Virus record (IMG/VR): IMGVR_UViG_3300025402_000077
Span: 1-20,068 of that record
Strand: one strand, 5' to 3'
DNA length: 20,068 nt
DNA from: a virus
How positions within the stretch are numbered: position 1 is the first letter of the stretch; each line of letters opens with the position of its first letter. Shown one piece after another: positions 3,645 through 20,068 of this stretch. The notes under the pieces are model-generated. The model was not told the DNA's origin and ran no database searches. It was given only the letters and a program-made list of their open reading frames with translations. The translations under genes and the position numbers were made by a program.

Positions 3645-3859
3645 AAGGTAAAAACATGAATGATTACATTTGGACAGTTAGCGGTACTGATATTACTCAA
3701 AGGTGGCGACAAAATGGCTGGATTCCACCATCAGAATTACCTGAGTACCAAAAGAAATGGAAGTTTTATCAAGAGTTGCCCTTGCGTAAACTTGATGATA
3801 AAGCCAAAGAAGAATACGAAATGGTGCTTAAAAAAGCAAAAGTATCTAGGATTCGTTAA
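3641..3859 (+). CDS. small hypothetical protein, last gene of plus-strand operon
   Basis: 72 residues from the ATG at 3641, which overlaps the preceding stop (ATGA). A second ATG at 3656 has AAAGG upstream at good spacing and gives a 67-residue protein beginning MNDYIWTVSG, so it may be the real start. The protein has a WRQNGWIPPSE segment and a lysine-rich helical C-terminus. The stop lies inside the convergent endolysin gene, with 14 nt of tail-to-tail overlap. Function is not recognised. Confidence 0.65.
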   Translation: MKGKNMNDYIWTVSGTDITQRWRQNGWIPPSELPEYQKKWKFYQELPLRKLDDKAKEEYEMVLKKAKVSRIR

Positions 3860-4388
3860 GCATTTCTAATGCGGCTTTACGGACTGTTTCAACCCTTGCT
3901 AACCAGCCTTTACCAAATGTAGGGAAAGTTGGCAGTCCTTCATAAAACCTTATTTTTGCATCGCTAAATTTATTAATTAAATCGGCTGGATCAACTTGTT
4001 TAAGCAACTCCATCGTTTTTGGGCCAACTACGCCATCTGGTACGCAACCAATGGCAGATTGCAAGGTCTTTACGCAACGCCCAGGGCCAGCATTGATAGC
4101 AAAATCTAGGCATAAATAATCAATACCTTTACTTAGCACTTGACCGTACACGGGATTCCAGTATTTTTGCTGATAAAACGGGGCTACTTTTTCTGGTGTC
4201 AAAGCCTTCATGTCGGCAGTTGATACTTTATGCCCTACAAATTCTTCCCATGCTTTCTGGGTAACGCCTAAGTTGGTACAACCTTGTCTGCCATCATCTA
4301 AATGATTGCCAGGGTCTTTAGGGTTATCAGTAAAGCCACCTTCTGACTTTAATACCAACTCTAGGCTTTTTTCAAAGTTATTGATCAT
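3846..4388 (-). CDS. endolysin, GH108 N-acetylmuramidase-like with peptidoglycan-binding domain
   Basis: 180 residues, the usual length for this family. Near the N-terminus, SEGGF carries Glu16, the expected catalytic glutamate of glycosyl hydrolase family 108; DPGN and TNLGVTQ complete the family signature. From about residue 85 the segment YWNPVYGQ...LCLDFAINAGPG...GVVGPKT matches the peptidoglycan-binding domain that normally follows. It would cut the glycan strands of host murein. No N-terminal signal or SAR helix is visible, so it probably needs a holin to reach the wall. Its start overlaps the i-spanin gene by 11 nt, making it the last gene of the lysis cassette. Confidence 0.92.
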   Translation of the reverse strand: MINNFEKSLELVLKSEGGFTDNPKDPGNHLDDGRQGCTNLGVTQKAWEEFVGHKVSTADMKALTPEKVAPFYQQKYWNPVYGQVLSKGIDYLCLDFAINAGPGRCVKTLQSAIGCVPDGVVGPKTMELLKQVDPADLINKFSDAKIRFYEGLPTFPTFGKGWLARVETVRKAALEMLNES

Positions 4389-5755: not shown

Positions 5756-5784
5756 AATATATTGTATTGTCCGATGTATTACAA
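5756..5784 (-). promoter_or_regulatory. sigma70-like promoter for the lysis cassette
   Basis: On the minus strand, TTGTAA (5784-5779) and TATATT (5761-5756) are separated by exactly 17 bases, and the implied start site is about 20 bases before the XhlA-like gene. ATGTATT heptamers at 5774-5780 and 5786-5792 (plus-strand reading) overlap and flank the -35 box and could be a regulator site. The -35 box overlaps the end of the upstream GT9-like gene. Prediction is from consensus match and placement only. Confidence 0.5.
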
Positions 5785-6216
5785 AATGTATTTTATCACT
5801 TCTTCGGGTTTTAAAAACGCATCAGGGTTATATTCAGTAAAATCCCACCAGAGAAATTGATTCTGGGCAAGATAATCACGGGACTTTAGCAAATTAGTAT
5901 TTTCTGGATGCCCATAGATTAATGGATCAGATACAGACCATAATACAACGCCAGGCTTTTGACAGTCCCATGCTAGATGCTGAAAAAAACTATCAACTCC
6001 AATCCAAGTCCGGCATTGAAGTATTAGTTGTTTTAATTCAGAAATAGGCAAATTTTTGTAAAATTCATGCACTAATTGTTTTTCGCCCTCTACACCTACT
6101 TGCACAATATGTATATTTTTTGGGATTTTTTGTATAAGTTCTTCCCAATATGGATAGTTTTTAGGGTTGTTTTTAATGCTATGCAATTTTTTAGCAAAAG
6201 GGGCAATAATAATCAT
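5779..6216 (-). CDS. GT9-like (heptosyltransferase) C-terminal half
   Basis: 145 residues. The segment WIGVDSFFQHLAWDCQKPGV followed by VLWSVSDPLIYGH resembles the nucleotide-sugar-binding half of GT9 heptosyltransferases, where a G-x-D-T/S-x-x-x-H-x-A motif precedes an (L/W)-(F/W)-x-x-(S/T)-(D/N)-P pattern. A full GT9 enzyme has about 300-350 residues, so this is only half. The missing N-terminal half appears at the end of the preceding gene, whose stop overlaps this start in an ATGA. The two polypeptides may assemble into one GT-B enzyme that transfers a sugar to a surface glycan or to a phage protein. Whether this split is a natural arrangement or a decayed gene is not settled. Confidence 0.65.
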   Translation of the reverse strand: MIIIAPFAKKLHSIKNNPKNYPYWEELIQKIPKNIHIVQVGVEGEKQLVHEFYKNLPISELKQLILQCRTWIGVDSFFQHLAWDCQKPGVVLWSVSDPLIYGHPENTNLLKSRDYLAQNQFLWWDFTEYNPDAFLKPEEVIKYIL

Positions 6217-7787
6217 AAATATAGCTTTCTATAAGCATTTTCTAAACTGTCTTTCCAATCCCATTGCGCCATCTTTTTATAGATATTCCAGCGGTCTAAA
6301 TCCTCAAACAATGCTTGTGCTTCTGCTATTGATCTGCCTGGCACGATTTCTGGATAGCAAGTAAATACCATAGGGTTATGTATATCAGGTAGCACATGAG
6401 AAAACACGATATGATCACCAGCCCCGCAATTAAGCACAACAACGGTGTAGTCGGCAAGCTGTAGTGTATTTCTAAAAATTTGTTCATCATGGGCGTACAT
6501 CCCTTCATTTGTTTCAGACCTTATGCCGCCTTGCGCTTTTAAATGCCAAGTTACTGCATGAGGGGCAACCAGTAATTTATATCCTTTTTGATGCAATCCA
6601 TAAGTAAATAGCGTTTCTTCCCGATGGGCTACACGGGATAAACCTAAGTTATAGTCATGTACGCCAGCACGATATAAGAATGAGCAATGCAAATGCTCTA
6701 CAAAATTTGATTTATTGATAATTCCCCATTGAATATTGGGTTCTTTATCAATGTCGGCAATTTTTCCTGTAGATTTTGATGTATCAAATATTGCTGGTAA
6801 AGTCAAAATTGACCCACCAACTGCGCCTATTGGATTGCCAACTTTAGACACTTCGCTTATATAGGTATAAAGCTGTTCTAATACATTGGGTTCTGGAATA
6901 GCATCATCATCTACACGCCAAACCCATTTGTAGCCCATCTCATTCGCTTTTTGATGGATATGATGCTGACCTTTTTTGTCGGCAAATAACCATTCCCATG
7001 CAATTTTCTTGTAATCCAATATTTGAAATATATGCTGGTATATAGGGTTTTCCCGCATATCTTCGGGATTGTCGTTATCGTCAAAAATAACTAACTTATC
7101 AGGGGTTTTAGTCTGATTGGCTATAGCCATCAAAACCATTGGCAAAGTCGTTGTATAACGCCCTCTGGTGGCCACAGAACATAAAATTTCTTTCCTTTGT
7201 GCCGCTTTGTCCCATTTGGCAATCATTAGATTAAAACGATTGTATTCATTGATGGGTTGCGGATAACTTGTAATTTGCCCATGTTCCCCAATATAAGAAA
7301 TATCAAAACCTTGAAAATGACTTTCGTTTATTCCGTGTAATTTGTGATGTTCGCCCCAAAAACCTTTTGGTTCATTCCAGGGACAAGTAATCAATAGTCG
7401 TTTGCAATGCTTTTTTAGTTTTTTGGCAATTTCTAAACCATTATCTAAATGCTCAATGACTTCAAAAGCAATGATGGTGTCGTATTGTTCTAGTGGATAA
7501 GTGTTGATGTCGGCATTAACAAATTTGTTAATACCATCCCATCCTTGTGCTTTGGCGTTTTCAATGATTTTAGGATCGTAATCTAACCCTGTATATTCAA
7601 TATCTTTTGGCAAAAATTGTCGGCCATAGCCATTAGAACAACCTATGTCTAATACTTTTTTACCAAATAAATTTTCTTTAGCCCAAAAATAACGGGTGGA
7701 TTCTCTTGGATAAACTGGATCACCCTTTAAGAATACCGCCCGTTCATAGTTGTTCATCAACTCATTTACTTCATCTTGTTTTGTCAT
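6213..7787 (-). CDS. methyltransferase-GT2 fusion with GT9-like N-terminal half
   Basis: 524 residues with three parts. Residues ~25-165: a class I SAM-dependent methyltransferase (VLDIGCSNGYG at 45-55, then GLDYD, and FEVIEHLD near 108-115). Residues ~199-425: a GT2-type glycosyltransferase, starting CSVATRGR, with a strand ending FDDND and the DxD-like VDDDA at 302-306 that binds metal and nucleotide sugar; REETLF near 389 may be the later acidic motif. Residues ~447-524: VVVLNCGAGDHIVFSHVLPDI, like the start of a GT9 enzyme, finished by the next gene. Such multi-enzyme proteins make or cap glycans. Its place between the collagen-like fibre and the lysis genes suggests modification of the fibre, or of host surface sugar. 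Confidence 0.78.
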   Translation of the reverse strand: MTKQDEVNELMNNYERAVFLKGDPVYPRESTRYFWAKENLFGKKVLDIGCSNGYGRQFLPKDIEYTGLDYDPKIIENAKAQGWDGINKFVNADINTYPLEQYDTIIAFEVIEHLDNGLEIAKKLKKHCKRLLITCPWNEPKGFWGEHHKLHGINESHFQGFDISYIGEHGQITSYPQPINEYNRFNLMIAKWDKAAQRKEILCSVATRGRYTTTLPMVLMAIANQTKTPDKLVIFDDNDNPEDMRENPIYQHIFQILDYKKIAWEWLFADKKGQHHIHQKANEMGYKWVWRVDDDAIPEPNVLEQLYTYISEVSKVGNPIGAVGGSILTLPAIFDTSKSTGKIADIDKEPNIQWGIINKSNFVEHLHCSFLYRAGVHDYNLGLSRVAHREETLFTYGLHQKGYKLLVAPHAVTWHLKAQGGIRSETNEGMYAHDEQIFRNTLQLADYTVVVLNCGAGDHIVFSHVLPDIHNPMVFTCYPEIVPGRSIAEAQALFEDLDRWNIYKKMAQWDWKDSLENAYRKLYL

Positions 7788-7800
7788 GTTTTTATATTAT

Positions 7801-10584
7801 TTAATGCGGATAAACTGCATCGACTATCATGCCCGCTGTTAATCCTGTTCCGAATACAATGCTTGTGCCGCTAGTTACTGTTACATCAGTACCGTTACGC
7901 ATTTTAACGCCATTCAAATACACCTCAATTTTGCCAGATGTATAACTTAATGATGTGCTAAATGTTGTTTGGCTTGCGGTGGCGGTAAATGTGTCATAAG
8001 TTAATGCAATGCCATATCCGCTGTACCCAGAATAACCGCTATAACCCGATACGCCTGATCCAGAATAACCTGAGTAACCAGAAATTCCAGAGTACCCGCT
8101 ATATCCGCTAATTCCTGATCCAGAATAACCACTATAGCCGCTAATGCCTGATGCGCCATTAGTACCATTTGTTCCAGAATAACCAGATATTCCGCTAAAG
8201 CCAGAATAGCCTGATGTGCCAACTGCGCCTGAGTAACCGCTATATCCAGAATAACCGCTTACGCCAGAACCAGAATATCCGCTATAGCCTGACACTCCAG
8301 AACCGCTATAGCCTGATATGCCTGAGTAGCCAGATATACCGCTAAAGCCAGAATAACCGCTTATACCGCTGTAACCTGATTGGGTATACATTACTTGAGT
8401 TGCGGTAACAATTACACCTGGCGTTACTGGCACAGTTGGCCCAGTCTGTGCGCTAGTTGTTGTAATAGAAATGCTTGTATTAGAAACTGCCCAAGCTAAT
8501 TGCAAATAATCACCAGCGGAAACTGTTAAAACATAATTAACTGCGGCAATTAACGCACCAGCACCGCCATGCGCTGTACCTGGCACATTGTAAATAGAAT
8601 TACTATCTGCAACATCAGAACCATTTTTTCTTAGCCATACATCGACATTATCGCCATTGGAATCTGAATTTGCAAATTGCAATGAATATTCAAGATTGTA
8701 TGTACCAGCATTTGCAAATTTAATTTGATTACCAGAAACAATGCTTACGCCATTAGCTTCAAATTGACTACCAATGTTTACAACATAAGCTGTTGTTGTA
8801 TTTGCGGCAGTTTGATTGGTTGTGTCATAAAAAGAACCATAAAAGCCTTGTACGCCACCGCCACCGTTTTGACCACTAAATCCTGAGTAACCAGAAATTC
8901 CAGAATAGCCACTTTGACCAACTGCGCCAGAATATCCAGAAATTCCAGAATAACCAGAATAGCCACTTACGCCAGAGCCAGAATATCCGCTGTAACCAGA
9001 GTAGCCAGAAACACCACTACCGCTATAACCAGAGAATCCGCTAATTCCTGAGTAGCCGCTGTAACCGCTATAACCAGAAACGCCACTACCAGAATAACCA
9101 GAAATGCCGCTGTAGCCAGAATATCCAGATACACCTGATCCGCTATAGCCTGAGTAACCGCTATATCCACTTACACCACTACCCGAATATCCGCTAATGC
9201 CAGAATATCCAGAGAATCCGCTGATGCCAGAGTAACCACTTATTCCAGAATAACCTGATGCACCATTAATTCCGCTATACCCAGAAATACCAGAATAGCC
9301 AGAATATCCACTAATGCCGCTACCCGAATATCCAGAATATCCTGATACGCCAGAACCAGAGTAACCACTAATACCAGAATAGCCACTAAATCCAGAAATA
9401 CCACTATAGCCTGATAGTCCATTTTGCCCACTTATTCCTGAGTAGCCGCTATATCCTGATACTCCGCTACCAGAGTAACCGCTGATTCCAGAAAATCCAG
9501 AATATCCACTTGTACCAGATTGTCCAACTGCGCCAGAATATCCTGATATACCACTAAATCCTGAGTAACCAGAAACACCGCTACCAGAATAGCCTGAGAA
9601 TCCACTAAAACCACTTATACCGCTAAATCCAGACCAGCCCGATACGCCACTACCAGAATACCCAGAAAAGCCGCTATAACCGCTTACACCGCTACCGCTA
9701 AAGCCAGATATACCAGAGTAACCAGAATAGCCAGAAATTCCTGAGAAACCGCTGTAACCAGAAATTCCTGAGTAACCGCTATAACCAGAATAACCAGATG
9801 TGCCTGGTGGCCCTACAATTTCGCCTACATTATTCCAAGTCGTGCCAGACCATACATAAAGATCGCCATTGGAATCGACAATATAAGCATCATTAGGAAG
9901 ATTGCCAACTAAAGGCAAATCGGCTGGAGTTGCTACTGATCCTTTAATGTTGATTGATGTACCTTGCTGACCACTCATTCCAGAAAATCCAGAATAGCCA
10001 GAAATACCAGATGCACCTACTTGACCGCTATATCCGCTATAACCCGATATTCCACTAAATCCAGAAATACCAGAAAATCCAGATTCGCCTGAGAATCCAG
10101 AATATCCGCTTACACCCGATCCAGAGTAACCGCTAAATCCAGAATACCCAGATGTTCCACTAAATCCAGACCAGCCACTTACGCCTGATCCACTAAATCC
10201 AGATTGACCAGAGAATCCAGAATAACCAGATAATCCAGATTGCCCTATTGCGCCAGAAAATCCAGAAGTACCAGAAAAACCACTATAGCCACTTGTACCT
10301 GATCCGCTATATCCGCTAAATCCTGAGTAACCAGAGTAGCCAGATGCGCCATCGTGACCAATAGTGCCGTTTTGACCTGAGTAACCACTAAATCCAGATA
10401 ATCCAGATTGCCCAGATTGACCGCTATAACCTGAGTAACCACTTAATCCTTGTGGGCCAACTAAACCACGATCAATCTTGATAGTTTGATTGGGTGGAGT
10501 TGCAACCTTAACTGTCTGCCGTGCTTGTGGCACTACAGATACGGACACATTATTTTGATCCGTTACATTAACTTTTATGCCCAT
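7801..10584 (-). CDS. collagen-like tail fibre with C1q-like domain
   Basis: 927 residues. N-terminal virion-attachment-like part (~1-42); collagen-like block 1 (~43-206); a small globular domain with DAYIVDSNGDLYVW (~207-258); block 2 (~259-575); a C1q/TNF-like jelly-roll (~578-732, with VDVWLRKNG); block 3 (~733-855); and a C-terminal domain with VYLNGVKM (~857-927). Repeats are Gly-X-Ser with X mostly Tyr, Phe or Ile and hardly any Pro, and about 18 short G-S-G interruptions. Such fibres trimerise and contact the host. GGAG before the ATG supports the start. Synonymous codons vary from repeat to repeat. The glycosyltransferase genes follow immediately downstream. Confidence 0.88.
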   Translation of the reverse strand: MGIKVNVTDQNNVSVSVVPQARQTVKVATPPNQTIKIDRGLVGPQGLSGYSGYSGQSGQSGLSGFSGYSGQNGTIGHDGASGYSGYSGFSGYSGSGTSGYSGFSGTSGFSGAIGQSGLSGYSGFSGQSGFSGSGVSGWSGFSGTSGYSGFSGYSGSGVSGYSGFSGESGFSGISGFSGISGYSGYSGQVGASGISGYSGFSGMSGQQGTSINIKGSVATPADLPLVGNLPNDAYIVDSNGDLYVWSGTTWNNVGEIVGPPGTSGYSGYSGYSGISGYSGFSGISGYSGYSGISGFSGSGVSGYSGFSGYSGSGVSGWSGFSGISGFSGFSGYSGSGVSGYSGFSGISGYSGAVGQSGTSGYSGFSGISGYSGSGVSGYSGYSGISGQNGLSGYSGISGFSGYSGISGYSGSGVSGYSGYSGSGISGYSGYSGISGYSGINGASGYSGISGYSGISGFSGYSGISGYSGSGVSGYSGYSGYSGSGVSGYSGYSGISGYSGSGVSGYSGYSGYSGISGFSGYSGSGVSGYSGYSGYSGSGVSGYSGYSGISGYSGAVGQSGYSGISGYSGFSGQNGGGGVQGFYGSFYDTTNQTAANTTTAYVVNIGSQFEANGVSIVSGNQIKFANAGTYNLEYSLQFANSDSNGDNVDVWLRKNGSDVADSNSIYNVPGTAHGGAGALIAAVNYVLTVSAGDYLQLAWAVSNTSISITTTSAQTGPTVPVTPGVIVTATQVMYTQSGYSGISGYSGFSGISGYSGISGYSGSGVSGYSGYSGSGVSGYSGYSGYSGAVGTSGYSGFSGISGYSGTNGTNGASGISGYSGYSGSGISGYSGYSGISGYSGYSGSGVSGYSGYSGYSGYGIALTYDTFTATASQTTFSTSLSYTSGKIEVYLNGVKMRNGTDVTVTSGTSIVFGTGLTAGMIVDAVYPH
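7996..10460 (-). repeat. 9-nt-period coding repeats of the collagen-like fibre
   Basis: Three arrays of Gly-X-Ser codons, interrupted by globular domains at about 9795-9960 and 8380-8850. Serine is written as AGC, AGT, TCT, TCA and others, and glycine as GGA, GGT, GGC and GGG in mixed order, so the protein repeats strictly while the DNA does not. Other frames also stay open over hundreds of bases here, giving false reading frames rich in Ile, Val and Ala. This is a protein-coding repeat, not a CRISPR array. Confidence 0.9.
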
Positions 10585-17781: not shown

Positions 17782-19680
17782 TTATCTACTTTGCGGTAAT
17801 GATCGTTGGGCAGATTGATTGGCCGCCCATACTGCGTTTTGATTTCTAGCCAAGAATTGCGTAGCTGATTGCGTATCAATGGCCGACATTTGTTGAATAT
17901 AAGGGCCGTTATAAACTACAGATGGTTGATTTGAACCGCCCATAACATCAGCCAATTTATTGTTTGGCACTACAGTACCAGCGGTTTGTGGCACAAACAA
18001 TTCTGGACCATTCTCACCAACAATAGATGGTACGCCTACTGGCGGTTGTCCACCATCAGCAAAACCAAACAATGAACCAATGCCAGATAGCATACCGCCT
18101 TCTTCCATTGATCCACCAATGCTTGATCCAATGGCTTGAAATAACTTCATTTCTTGCGCCCGCAATTCAATTTTTAACATATCTGCCAAAATGCTTTTTG
18201 CTAAATCGCCAAAGTTTAATTTGCCAGTTTCTACAAACTTTTCTAACGCATTAGTCATTGAATTGGTAATAGCATTAAACATTTCTTGCGCTTGCATTGC
18301 CGCATTGTTTGAATTCTCTACATATTGTTCATATGCTTTTTGCCAACCATAACTAAATGATTGCTGTAATTTTTGCGTTGCTAATACTTCATCTTCTGTC
18401 TTTTGGACATAAGTTTCTGCGGTGTCAATAATTTGTTGTTTTTGCTCTTTAAGGGCTTTAATTACAGCTTGACCAGCGGCAGTTGATGGATCGGTTGTGG
18501 CAATCTTTTTATCAACATTGTCCAAAGCCTTTTGCATTTCTGTAAGCACTTTGGTAATTTCAGAAACATAATCTTTTTGATTTTTAGTAAGATGTGTTTC
18601 GGCTTCTTTAGCAGATAACATTTGAAACTGAATGGCCGCTTGTCTTGCATACTCTTTAGATAAATCTTGTGCTTGCAATAACTGTTTTTCGCCAGCAAAT
18701 GTAACTGGTCTGTTTACATCTTGTTGTGGCTCTTGCTTTGGTGTTTCTTTTGAACGATTTAAAATCTTCTGGGCAAATTCCTCATCGGATTCAGCCATCT
18801 TTTTGACTTTATCGTCATAGTCTTTTAGGTCTTGCAATGCTTTAGAAAAGTCACCGTGAATAGCATCGGTGGTGGCCGCAATAACGCCTTGTATTTCTGT
18901 AAAGAATCCAACAATGACTGTGGCCGTATATTTAAATACTACGGCAACTGTTTCAGCCGTTGTTTGCAATACTTCGCCAAAAAACTGTATAGCAGTAGCA
19001 TCTTTATGCAACGCATCATAAAGCTGTAGTAGCGATGGGAATACTGCGTTAGTAAATTCTAATGTAAGCTGGTGTGATGCTTCTTTTAACTTAATGCTTA
19101 ATTCGTGTGCTTGAGTAACAGCTTGGGCATACTTGTCCATTTCGCCCTTGCCTTCAACAAGGTCTGCCGCCAATCCTTTAATATCAACGCCCCTGATTCC
19201 ACGCCCAAGAACTTGAAACGCCAAACCATTCCGTTCCGCAGAATCTTGCATTTTTGCAAGACCTTGTACGGTTTTATTAAATAAATCTTCCTCAGATAGC
19301 GTTTTAAGGTCTTTTAGGGAAACGCCTAACCTGGCAAATGCTTCTTGAACCTTGCCACTACCTAATGCGGCAGATTCAATTTTTTGAGTAAATCCAGAAT
19401 AAATACGGCTAGTTTCTTCGGCATCACCGCCATTTTTCATCAGGGCAGATGATAGGTTTAAAACGGATGCAACCGCTACATCATTGGCTTTTGCTGTTTT
19501 AACAACGGAATCTGCATATTCCATTGCCTTATTTGTCATTTCAGCAAATGCGGCAACGGACAGTAACTCGCCAGCCCGTTCTTTGAAATTCTGTAAGGCT
19601 TCTTTGGCTTTTTCGATGCCTTGTGTAAAGTCGGCTGTATCTATGCCTAACTTAACCCCAAGACTTGCGATATTTGCCAT
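17782..19680 (-). CDS. tape measure protein
   Basis: 632 residues. The N-terminal region (SLGVKLGIDTADFTQGIEKA) is the usual start of tape measure proteins; long helices follow with AFARLGVSLKDLKTLSEEDL typical of this family; a hydrophobic stretch near 240-265 could insert in the host membrane; the C-terminal part has NSMTNALEKFVETGKLNFGD, the lambda-type tape measure end, and FADGG...VGENGPELFVPQ. It sets tail length and is ejected ahead of DNA. At roughly 1.5 angstrom per residue the tail would be near 95 nm. Its ATG directly abuts the stop of the chaperone gene, whose end supplies its AAAGGA. Confidence 0.9.
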   Translation of the reverse strand: MANIASLGVKLGIDTADFTQGIEKAKEALQNFKERAGELLSVAAFAEMTNKAMEYADSVVKTAKANDVAVASVLNLSSALMKNGGDAEETSRIYSGFTQKIESAALGSGKVQEAFARLGVSLKDLKTLSEEDLFNKTVQGLAKMQDSAERNGLAFQVLGRGIRGVDIKGLAADLVEGKGEMDKYAQAVTQAHELSIKLKEASHQLTLEFTNAVFPSLLQLYDALHKDATAIQFFGEVLQTTAETVAVVFKYTATVIVGFFTEIQGVIAATTDAIHGDFSKALQDLKDYDDKVKKMAESDEEFAQKILNRSKETPKQEPQQDVNRPVTFAGEKQLLQAQDLSKEYARQAAIQFQMLSAKEAETHLTKNQKDYVSEITKVLTEMQKALDNVDKKIATTDPSTAAGQAVIKALKEQKQQIIDTAETYVQKTEDEVLATQKLQQSFSYGWQKAYEQYVENSNNAAMQAQEMFNAITNSMTNALEKFVETGKLNFGDLAKSILADMLKIELRAQEMKLFQAIGSSIGGSMEEGGMLSGIGSLFGFADGGQPPVGVPSIVGENGPELFVPQTAGTVVPNNKLADVMGGSNQPSVVYNGPYIQQMSAIDTQSATQFLARNQNAVWAANQSAQRSLPQSR

Positions 19681-20068
19681 TTATTTTCCTTTGAACAGAC
19701 TTTTTGGTGCTTTTGGATTCATTAACATAAATGTTAATAATTGCTCATTAACTTGCGCCTTCTTATCTTGTTCTGTTAATGGCGGGTAAATATACCCATA
19801 CACTCTAGGTATTATATCTTGCAATTTATAACTTGGCTTACCTTTTGGCAACATTGAATTAAATTGACCAGCCGTCAATGTGCCTAATACTTCCAGAATT
19901 GCACGATTGCCAATTAGCCCATCTGCATACATTATGCAAATGTCGGTAAATGTTTCTTCGTCTATTTGGTTCGGGTCAGACCCGTGTGCAAGGATATAAG
20001 CCTTTGTTTGCCTACGGATCGACCCAGTTACTTTCCCTTTGCGGATTCGTAACTTGGGCTAATTGTTT
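19681..20068 (-). CDS. tail assembly chaperone GT product, -1 frameshifted (partial)
   Basis: The 3' part of a G-GT-type chaperone. The T-frame is open from the slippery heptamer at 20031-20037 to 19681 and reads VTGSIRRQTKAYILAH..., well upstream of the ATG at 19932 that a simple gene call would use. No start codon of the ATG/GTG/TTG type lies in this frame between 19932 and its upstream stop near 20059-20061, so translation should enter by frameshift. The T part of about 118 residues would bind the tape measure C-terminus during tail assembly. The 5' part (gpG) lies outside the window. It sits immediately before the tape measure, as in lambda. Confidence 0.82.
20028..20068 (-). CDS. tail assembly chaperone gpG-like, C-terminal end (partial)
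   Basis: Only the last residues are in the window: TISPSYESAKGK, then TAA at 20030-20028. The frame crosses the slippery sequence as G-GGA-AAG and stops right after it, as expected for the short product of a frameshifting chaperone pair. The rest of the gene lies beyond position 20068, so no domain can be assessed. Confidence 0.7.
   Translation of the reverse strand, partial: TISPSYESAKGK
20031..20037 (-). promoter_or_regulatory. programmed -1 frameshift slippery site GGGAAAG
   Basis: The minus strand reads GGGAAAG followed at once by TAA in the zero frame. GGGAAAG is the exact heptamer used in the lambda G/GT gene. Slipping by one base turns G-GGA-AAG into GGG-AAA-G and opens the frame that runs to 19681. 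About 45-60 bases downstream, CGGGTCTGACCCG (19972-19984) can form a 5-bp hairpin, and its GACCC can pair instead with an earlier GGGTC (20021-20025), which might form a stimulatory structure. Confidence 0.85.

Follow-up and report, generated by a model that had tools for sequence, protein, structure and literature searches.

A probable lambda-type -1 frameshift signal with an abutting stop codon and a conserved hairpin before the tape measure gene of a freshwater phage

Two overlapping frames at the right end of the window

The window is the whole 20,068-base IMG/VR virus record IMGVR_UViG_3300025402_000077, described as a freshwater phage. At its right end, on the minus strand, two overlapping frames stand directly before the gene of the tail tape measure protein, an arrangement that is a feature of lambda-type G/GT pairs. 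The locus contains the following features:

20028..20068 (-): 3' end of a gpG-like gene in the zero frame (...TISPSYESAKGK and stop), the rest of which is found in contig L003
20031..20037 (-): slippery heptamer G_GGA_AAG, read from the sequence; X_XXY_YYZ or A_AAG is kept in relatives
20028..20030 (-): zero-frame stop TAA abutting the heptamer; the stop abuts at 192 of 194 distinct sites
19681..20037 (-): T domain in the -1 frame, the C-terminal part of a predicted G-T fusion; 118 codons and a stop
19972..20026 (-): putative stimulatory hairpin, 5' arm 20026-20014 and 3' arm 19985-19972
19930..19932 (-): internal ATG, the choice of start-codon-based annotation; conserved Met (MYADG), without Shine-Dalgarno
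17782..19680 (-): tail tape measure protein (phrog_24, E 9e-21), its ATG directly after the T stop

The last 13 codons of the zero frame, stop included, lie in the window and read ...TISPSYESAKGK-TAA. From GGG AAA onwards the -1 frame reads GKVTGSIRRQ... and runs for 118 codons to a TAA at 19683-19681, which touches the ATG of the tape measure gene at 19680. Upstream of the slip site the same frame has 7 open codons preceded by TAG and contains no ATG, GTG or TTG; the first start codon past the slip site is the ATG at 19932, 35 codons in. The original prediction, which had placed GGGAAAG at 20031-20037 of the minus strand with a zero-frame TAA (20030-20028) immediately 3' of it, a -1 frame open for about 118 codons to the tape measure gene and no start codon in the upstream part of that frame, is thus borne out in its anatomy. 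The number of GGGAAAG copies in the window (4, against 1.8 expected by chance) was dropped as evidence. Elsewhere on the minus strand the window encodes a lysozyme-like protein with a glycosyl hydrolase 108 and a peptidoglycan-binding domain (3846-4388), a glycosyltransferase family 9-like protein and, next to it, one of 524 aa that has a methyltransferase domain at its N-terminus and weakly matches glycosyltransferase 2 (5779-7787, adjoining the tail fibre genes), and a tail fibre protein of 927 aa in which matches to tail fibre and collagen-like minor tail families recur many times (7801-10584).

The window ends inside the upstream gene, the first 445 bases of which lie beyond the contig end. 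A check named with the original prediction was to extend the contig upstream, and this could be done with the IMG/VR contig L003, which agrees with the window at 100% identity over 5,385 bases and continues upstream. There the zero frame remains open and forms a complete gpG-like reading frame of 161 aa (L003 4546-5031), which starts with ATG, runs as far as the heptamer and lies just ahead of the tape measure gene. Its Shine-Dalgarno energy, taken from the near-identical relative L002, is -5.9 kcal/mol. In L012, a close relative, structural genes stand in a row upstream of the gpG-like gene, and T and the tape measure gene come immediately after it.

An AlphaFold model of the G-like protein built from 74 relatives reached a pLDDT of 89.7; prediction from the single sequence was unusable (pLDDT 35). 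The PDB fold closest to the model is the HK97 tail assembly chaperone (PDB 2OB9), a weak match that is not significant (E 0.4, probability 0.72, TM 0.41/0.56, 6% identity); the same chaperone occupies ranks 1 and 5 of the PDB fold matches, with E 0.4 and 1.5, and among the weak viral fold matches are several proteins named as tail assembly chaperones. By sequence, neither domain matched a named family or a chaperone family in Pfam or PHROGs, and a PDB sequence search of both gave nothing meaningful. Matches of T to kinesin and to designed proteins were taken as chance. Tail chaperones share little sequence, and a family match is not a defining feature of them (PMC5009743). The predicted fold, the gene position and the frameshift together make a gpG/gpGT chaperone role likely for the pair.

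The slip site in relatives

Starting from 66 relatives and adding four more scans, we obtained 317 matching loci, which represent 194 distinct sites. A stop codon follows the slip site directly in 192 of these, TAA, TAG and TGA all being used; in the two exceptions, L127 (near 1568) and L143 (near 3001), GGGAAAG is kept, the abutting stop is lost and the next stop lies 12 codons on. All 192 sites with an abutting stop are in register and fall into three classes: GGGAAAN (127 sites, comprising GGGAAAC 54, GGGAAAG 49 and GGGAAAA 24), AAAAAAN (7 sites, AAAAAAC 5 and AAAAAAA 2) and the heptamer-less N(TC/GC)AAA(G/A) (58 sites, GTCAAAG 38, CTCAAAG 10, TTCAAAG 8, TGCAAAG 1 and GTCAAAA 1). A slippery X_XXY_YYZ, or Z_ZZN, is therefore conserved at the end of the zero frame, and none of the 192 sites has a -1 frame start codon upstream of the slip.

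The middle codon is GGA in 53 of 53 GGG-type representatives, and in those G genes only 30 of 257 Gly codons are GGA. On a tree of the fusion protein an interchange of GGG and AAA sites needs two changes, and GGG became AAA twice, with X_XXY_YYZ kept each time. The N_TCA_AAG site arose in one clade (support 100/99), whose A_AAG is the only in-phase slippable codon common to all 18 representatives; four of the 18 have another such codon two positions before it, and 3 have a -1 frame that becomes open right at A_AAG. To judge from its letters, the A_AAG tetramer is the only element that can slip at the site in this clade. The conservation of the heptamer that was expected from homologues is accordingly found in part: GGG and AAA heptamers are kept in register, and in the clade of 58 sites the heptamer is lost while A_AAG (once A_AAA) and the hairpin are retained. 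Since GGG or AAA is kept outside the N_TCA_AAG clade, two-tRNA slippage appears to be selected there.

Hairpin and coding selection downstream of the slip

A stem of about 12 bp is present in every clade, beginning 4-6 nt 3' of the slip site (4 nt after the heptamer in the window, 5-6 nt in most relatives). Compared with synonymous recoding of the same protein in 76 representatives, the stability of the hairpin has a mean z of -3.54, and 99% of the values fall below -2; in four stretches further along the T gene the mean z is between -0.65 and -0.12, so that the strong signal is restricted to the hairpin. The clades were folded separately, a single consensus fold over all of them being empty because the position of the 3' arm differs by clade. 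In the window's clade 92.1% of cells are paired, as against 88.6% after shuffling and 27-40% on sliding, and 13 cells carry compensatory changes; for the two other large clades taken together 98.8% of cells are paired and 34 are compensatory, and neither compensatory count was reached by any of 500 shuffles. The 3' arm lies about 6 nt nearer in the other clades than in that of the window and the 5' start is constant, which fits our inference that selection acts on the spacing from the slip site. An Rfam search gave no match. Several clades carry AAGGAA or GAGGAA upstream of the site, but a Shine-Dalgarno-like stimulator was rejected, its strength not exceeding what synonymous recoding yields (mean z -0.3 to -0.9). 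Neither the hairpin nor the constancy of the abutting stop nor the clade with the tetramer had figured in the original prediction.

The -1 frame is under protein-level selection from the slip site on. Over codons 4-33, which precede the ATG at 19932, 37 representatives give a pN/pS of 0.21 and no stops in this frame; the other two frames have pN/pS values of 1.39 and 2.21 and contain 73 and 133 stops. The ATG itself has a Shine-Dalgarno energy of +0.1 kcal/mol, i.e. none, whereas G has -5.9 and the tape measure gene -5.8; the Met of this ATG (M36) is invariant in the 14 aligned T domains. Selected codons before an ATG that has no Shine-Dalgarno mean that annotation from the internal ATG drops the start of the domain. 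Both statements made earlier, that 19932 is not the start of T and that ATG-based annotation misses its first residues, are supported by these data. The second is seen in the cultured Methylophilaceae phage P19250A, whose genes 13 and 14 (L068 3905-4716; KX815270.1 9904-10715) are both annotated as 'hypothetical protein', gene 14 from an internal ATG and with no frameshift annotated. By homology these genes are a G/GT pair: identity is 40% over the whole of both proteins, the layout is the same and the tape measure gene comes next, the difference being a site G_TCA_AAG_TAG in place of G_GGA_AAG_TAA.

A proposed programmed -1 frameshift and its possible variants

We propose that the gpG-like gene ends in a signal for programmed -1 ribosomal frameshifting of the lambda G/GT type, with a probability of about 0.95. 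Most ribosomes would read AAG GGA AAG TAA in the zero frame and stop, yielding gpG of 161 aa. The hairpin would meet the ribosome while GGA and AAG are decoded and stall a minority, in which the two tRNAs may slip back one base onto GGG and AAA; continued translation in the -1 frame would then produce a gpG-T fusion of 277 aa. As in lambda, gpG may attach along the tape measure protein, to which T may recruit the tail tube subunit. The conserved layout, the coding selection in the -1 frame and the selected hairpin support the frameshift making a GT-like protein that had been predicted; slippage itself, its rate and the chaperone roles we infer from sequence. Two observations sit less easily with the proposal, namely that 58 of the 192 sites have no double-slip heptamer, so that the A_AAG tetramer would have to slip there, and that the HK97 fold match is weak (E 0.4), with no chaperone match in Pfam or PHROGs by sequence.

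If the internal ATG at 19932 were instead the start of a separate T gene, translated either from a ribosome binding site of its own or by ribosomes re-initiating once G has ended, the heptamer would be incidental. In favour of this, the Met is conserved throughout the 14 aligned T domains and the GenBank entry for P19250A starts T at an internal ATG; however, -1 codons 4-33 before the ATG are conserved as protein, the ATG is without Shine-Dalgarno, and the invariant GGA and the heptamer-preserving swaps would be left unexplained, which makes a separate gene very improbable. Still less credible is transcriptional slippage at the G/A run, inserting or dropping a base: it has the purine run on its side and nothing beyond, but neither GGGAAAG nor TCAAAG contains a run of more than three equal bases, and the selection of an RNA hairpin 4-6 nt downstream in every clade is as for ribosomal slippage.

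A different sub-mechanism, compatible with the programmed frameshift, would have the slip made mainly by a single P-site Lys or Asn tRNA while the abutting stop waits in the A site, GGG being only an enhancer. The abutment at 192 of 194 sites irrespective of the stop codon used points towards it, as does the clade in which only A_AAG would slip and the -1 frame opens there in 3 representatives; on the other side, L127 and L143 keep GGGAAAG with the next stop 12 codons on, and the retention of GGG and AAA outside one clade argues for selection of two-tRNA slippage there. This shifty stop is rather unlikely, and A-site and P-site slippage cannot be separated by sequence.

The locus resembles lambda, where G_GGA_AAG at the 3' end of the gene just before the tape measure gene directs a -1 shift into the T frame (PMC5009743). 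In lambda, however, five sense codons separate the heptamer from the stop (public record) and here there are none; the hairpin conserved 4-6 nt after the slip and proteins that match no described family by sequence are further differences. The mean distance to the stop in the two tail chaperone sets of PRFect is 26 and 36 nt (PMC10885494), compared with 0 here. For the heptamer-less clade the nearest parallel is the tetramer: A_AAG outperforms the other -1 tetramers in E. coli, where with the IS3 pseudoknot downstream tetramers shift at up to 5.6% (PMC4066793), and IS1222 uses A_AAG frameshifting (PMC5009743). The N_TCA_AAG clade has exactly A_AAG and a downstream structure, but in a chaperone family whose other members use heptamers rather than in transposases. 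The kind of event is thus ordinary, i.e. lambda-type, in an unannotated chaperone family, and some of its anatomical detail is new.

At least 575 related IMG/VR stretches occur in viral contigs. Among 84,980 bacterial and archaeal genomes there were 43 pattern matches in contigs, none of them a relative, and this absence suggests lytic phages or unsequenced hosts. The present analysis gives a likely function to two 'hypothetical' genes adjoining the tape measure gene in this abundant aquatic phage family and corrects the annotation of the cultured reference phage P19250A. The family also offers a compact natural experiment, in which one protein pair is combined with slip sites of three kinds, a hairpin whose position is conserved, and a stop that abuts the site. 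Tentatively, and with the odds against it, its signal may have been rebuilt round a fixed core consisting of an AAZ codon prone to shifting, the stop that it abuts and a hairpin 4-6 nt on, one clade (including P19250A) having exchanged two-tRNA slippage for slippage of a single tRNA with the participation of the abutting stop. If this is true, the family would be a natural series for testing how the stop codon and the hairpin act in bacterial -1 slippage.
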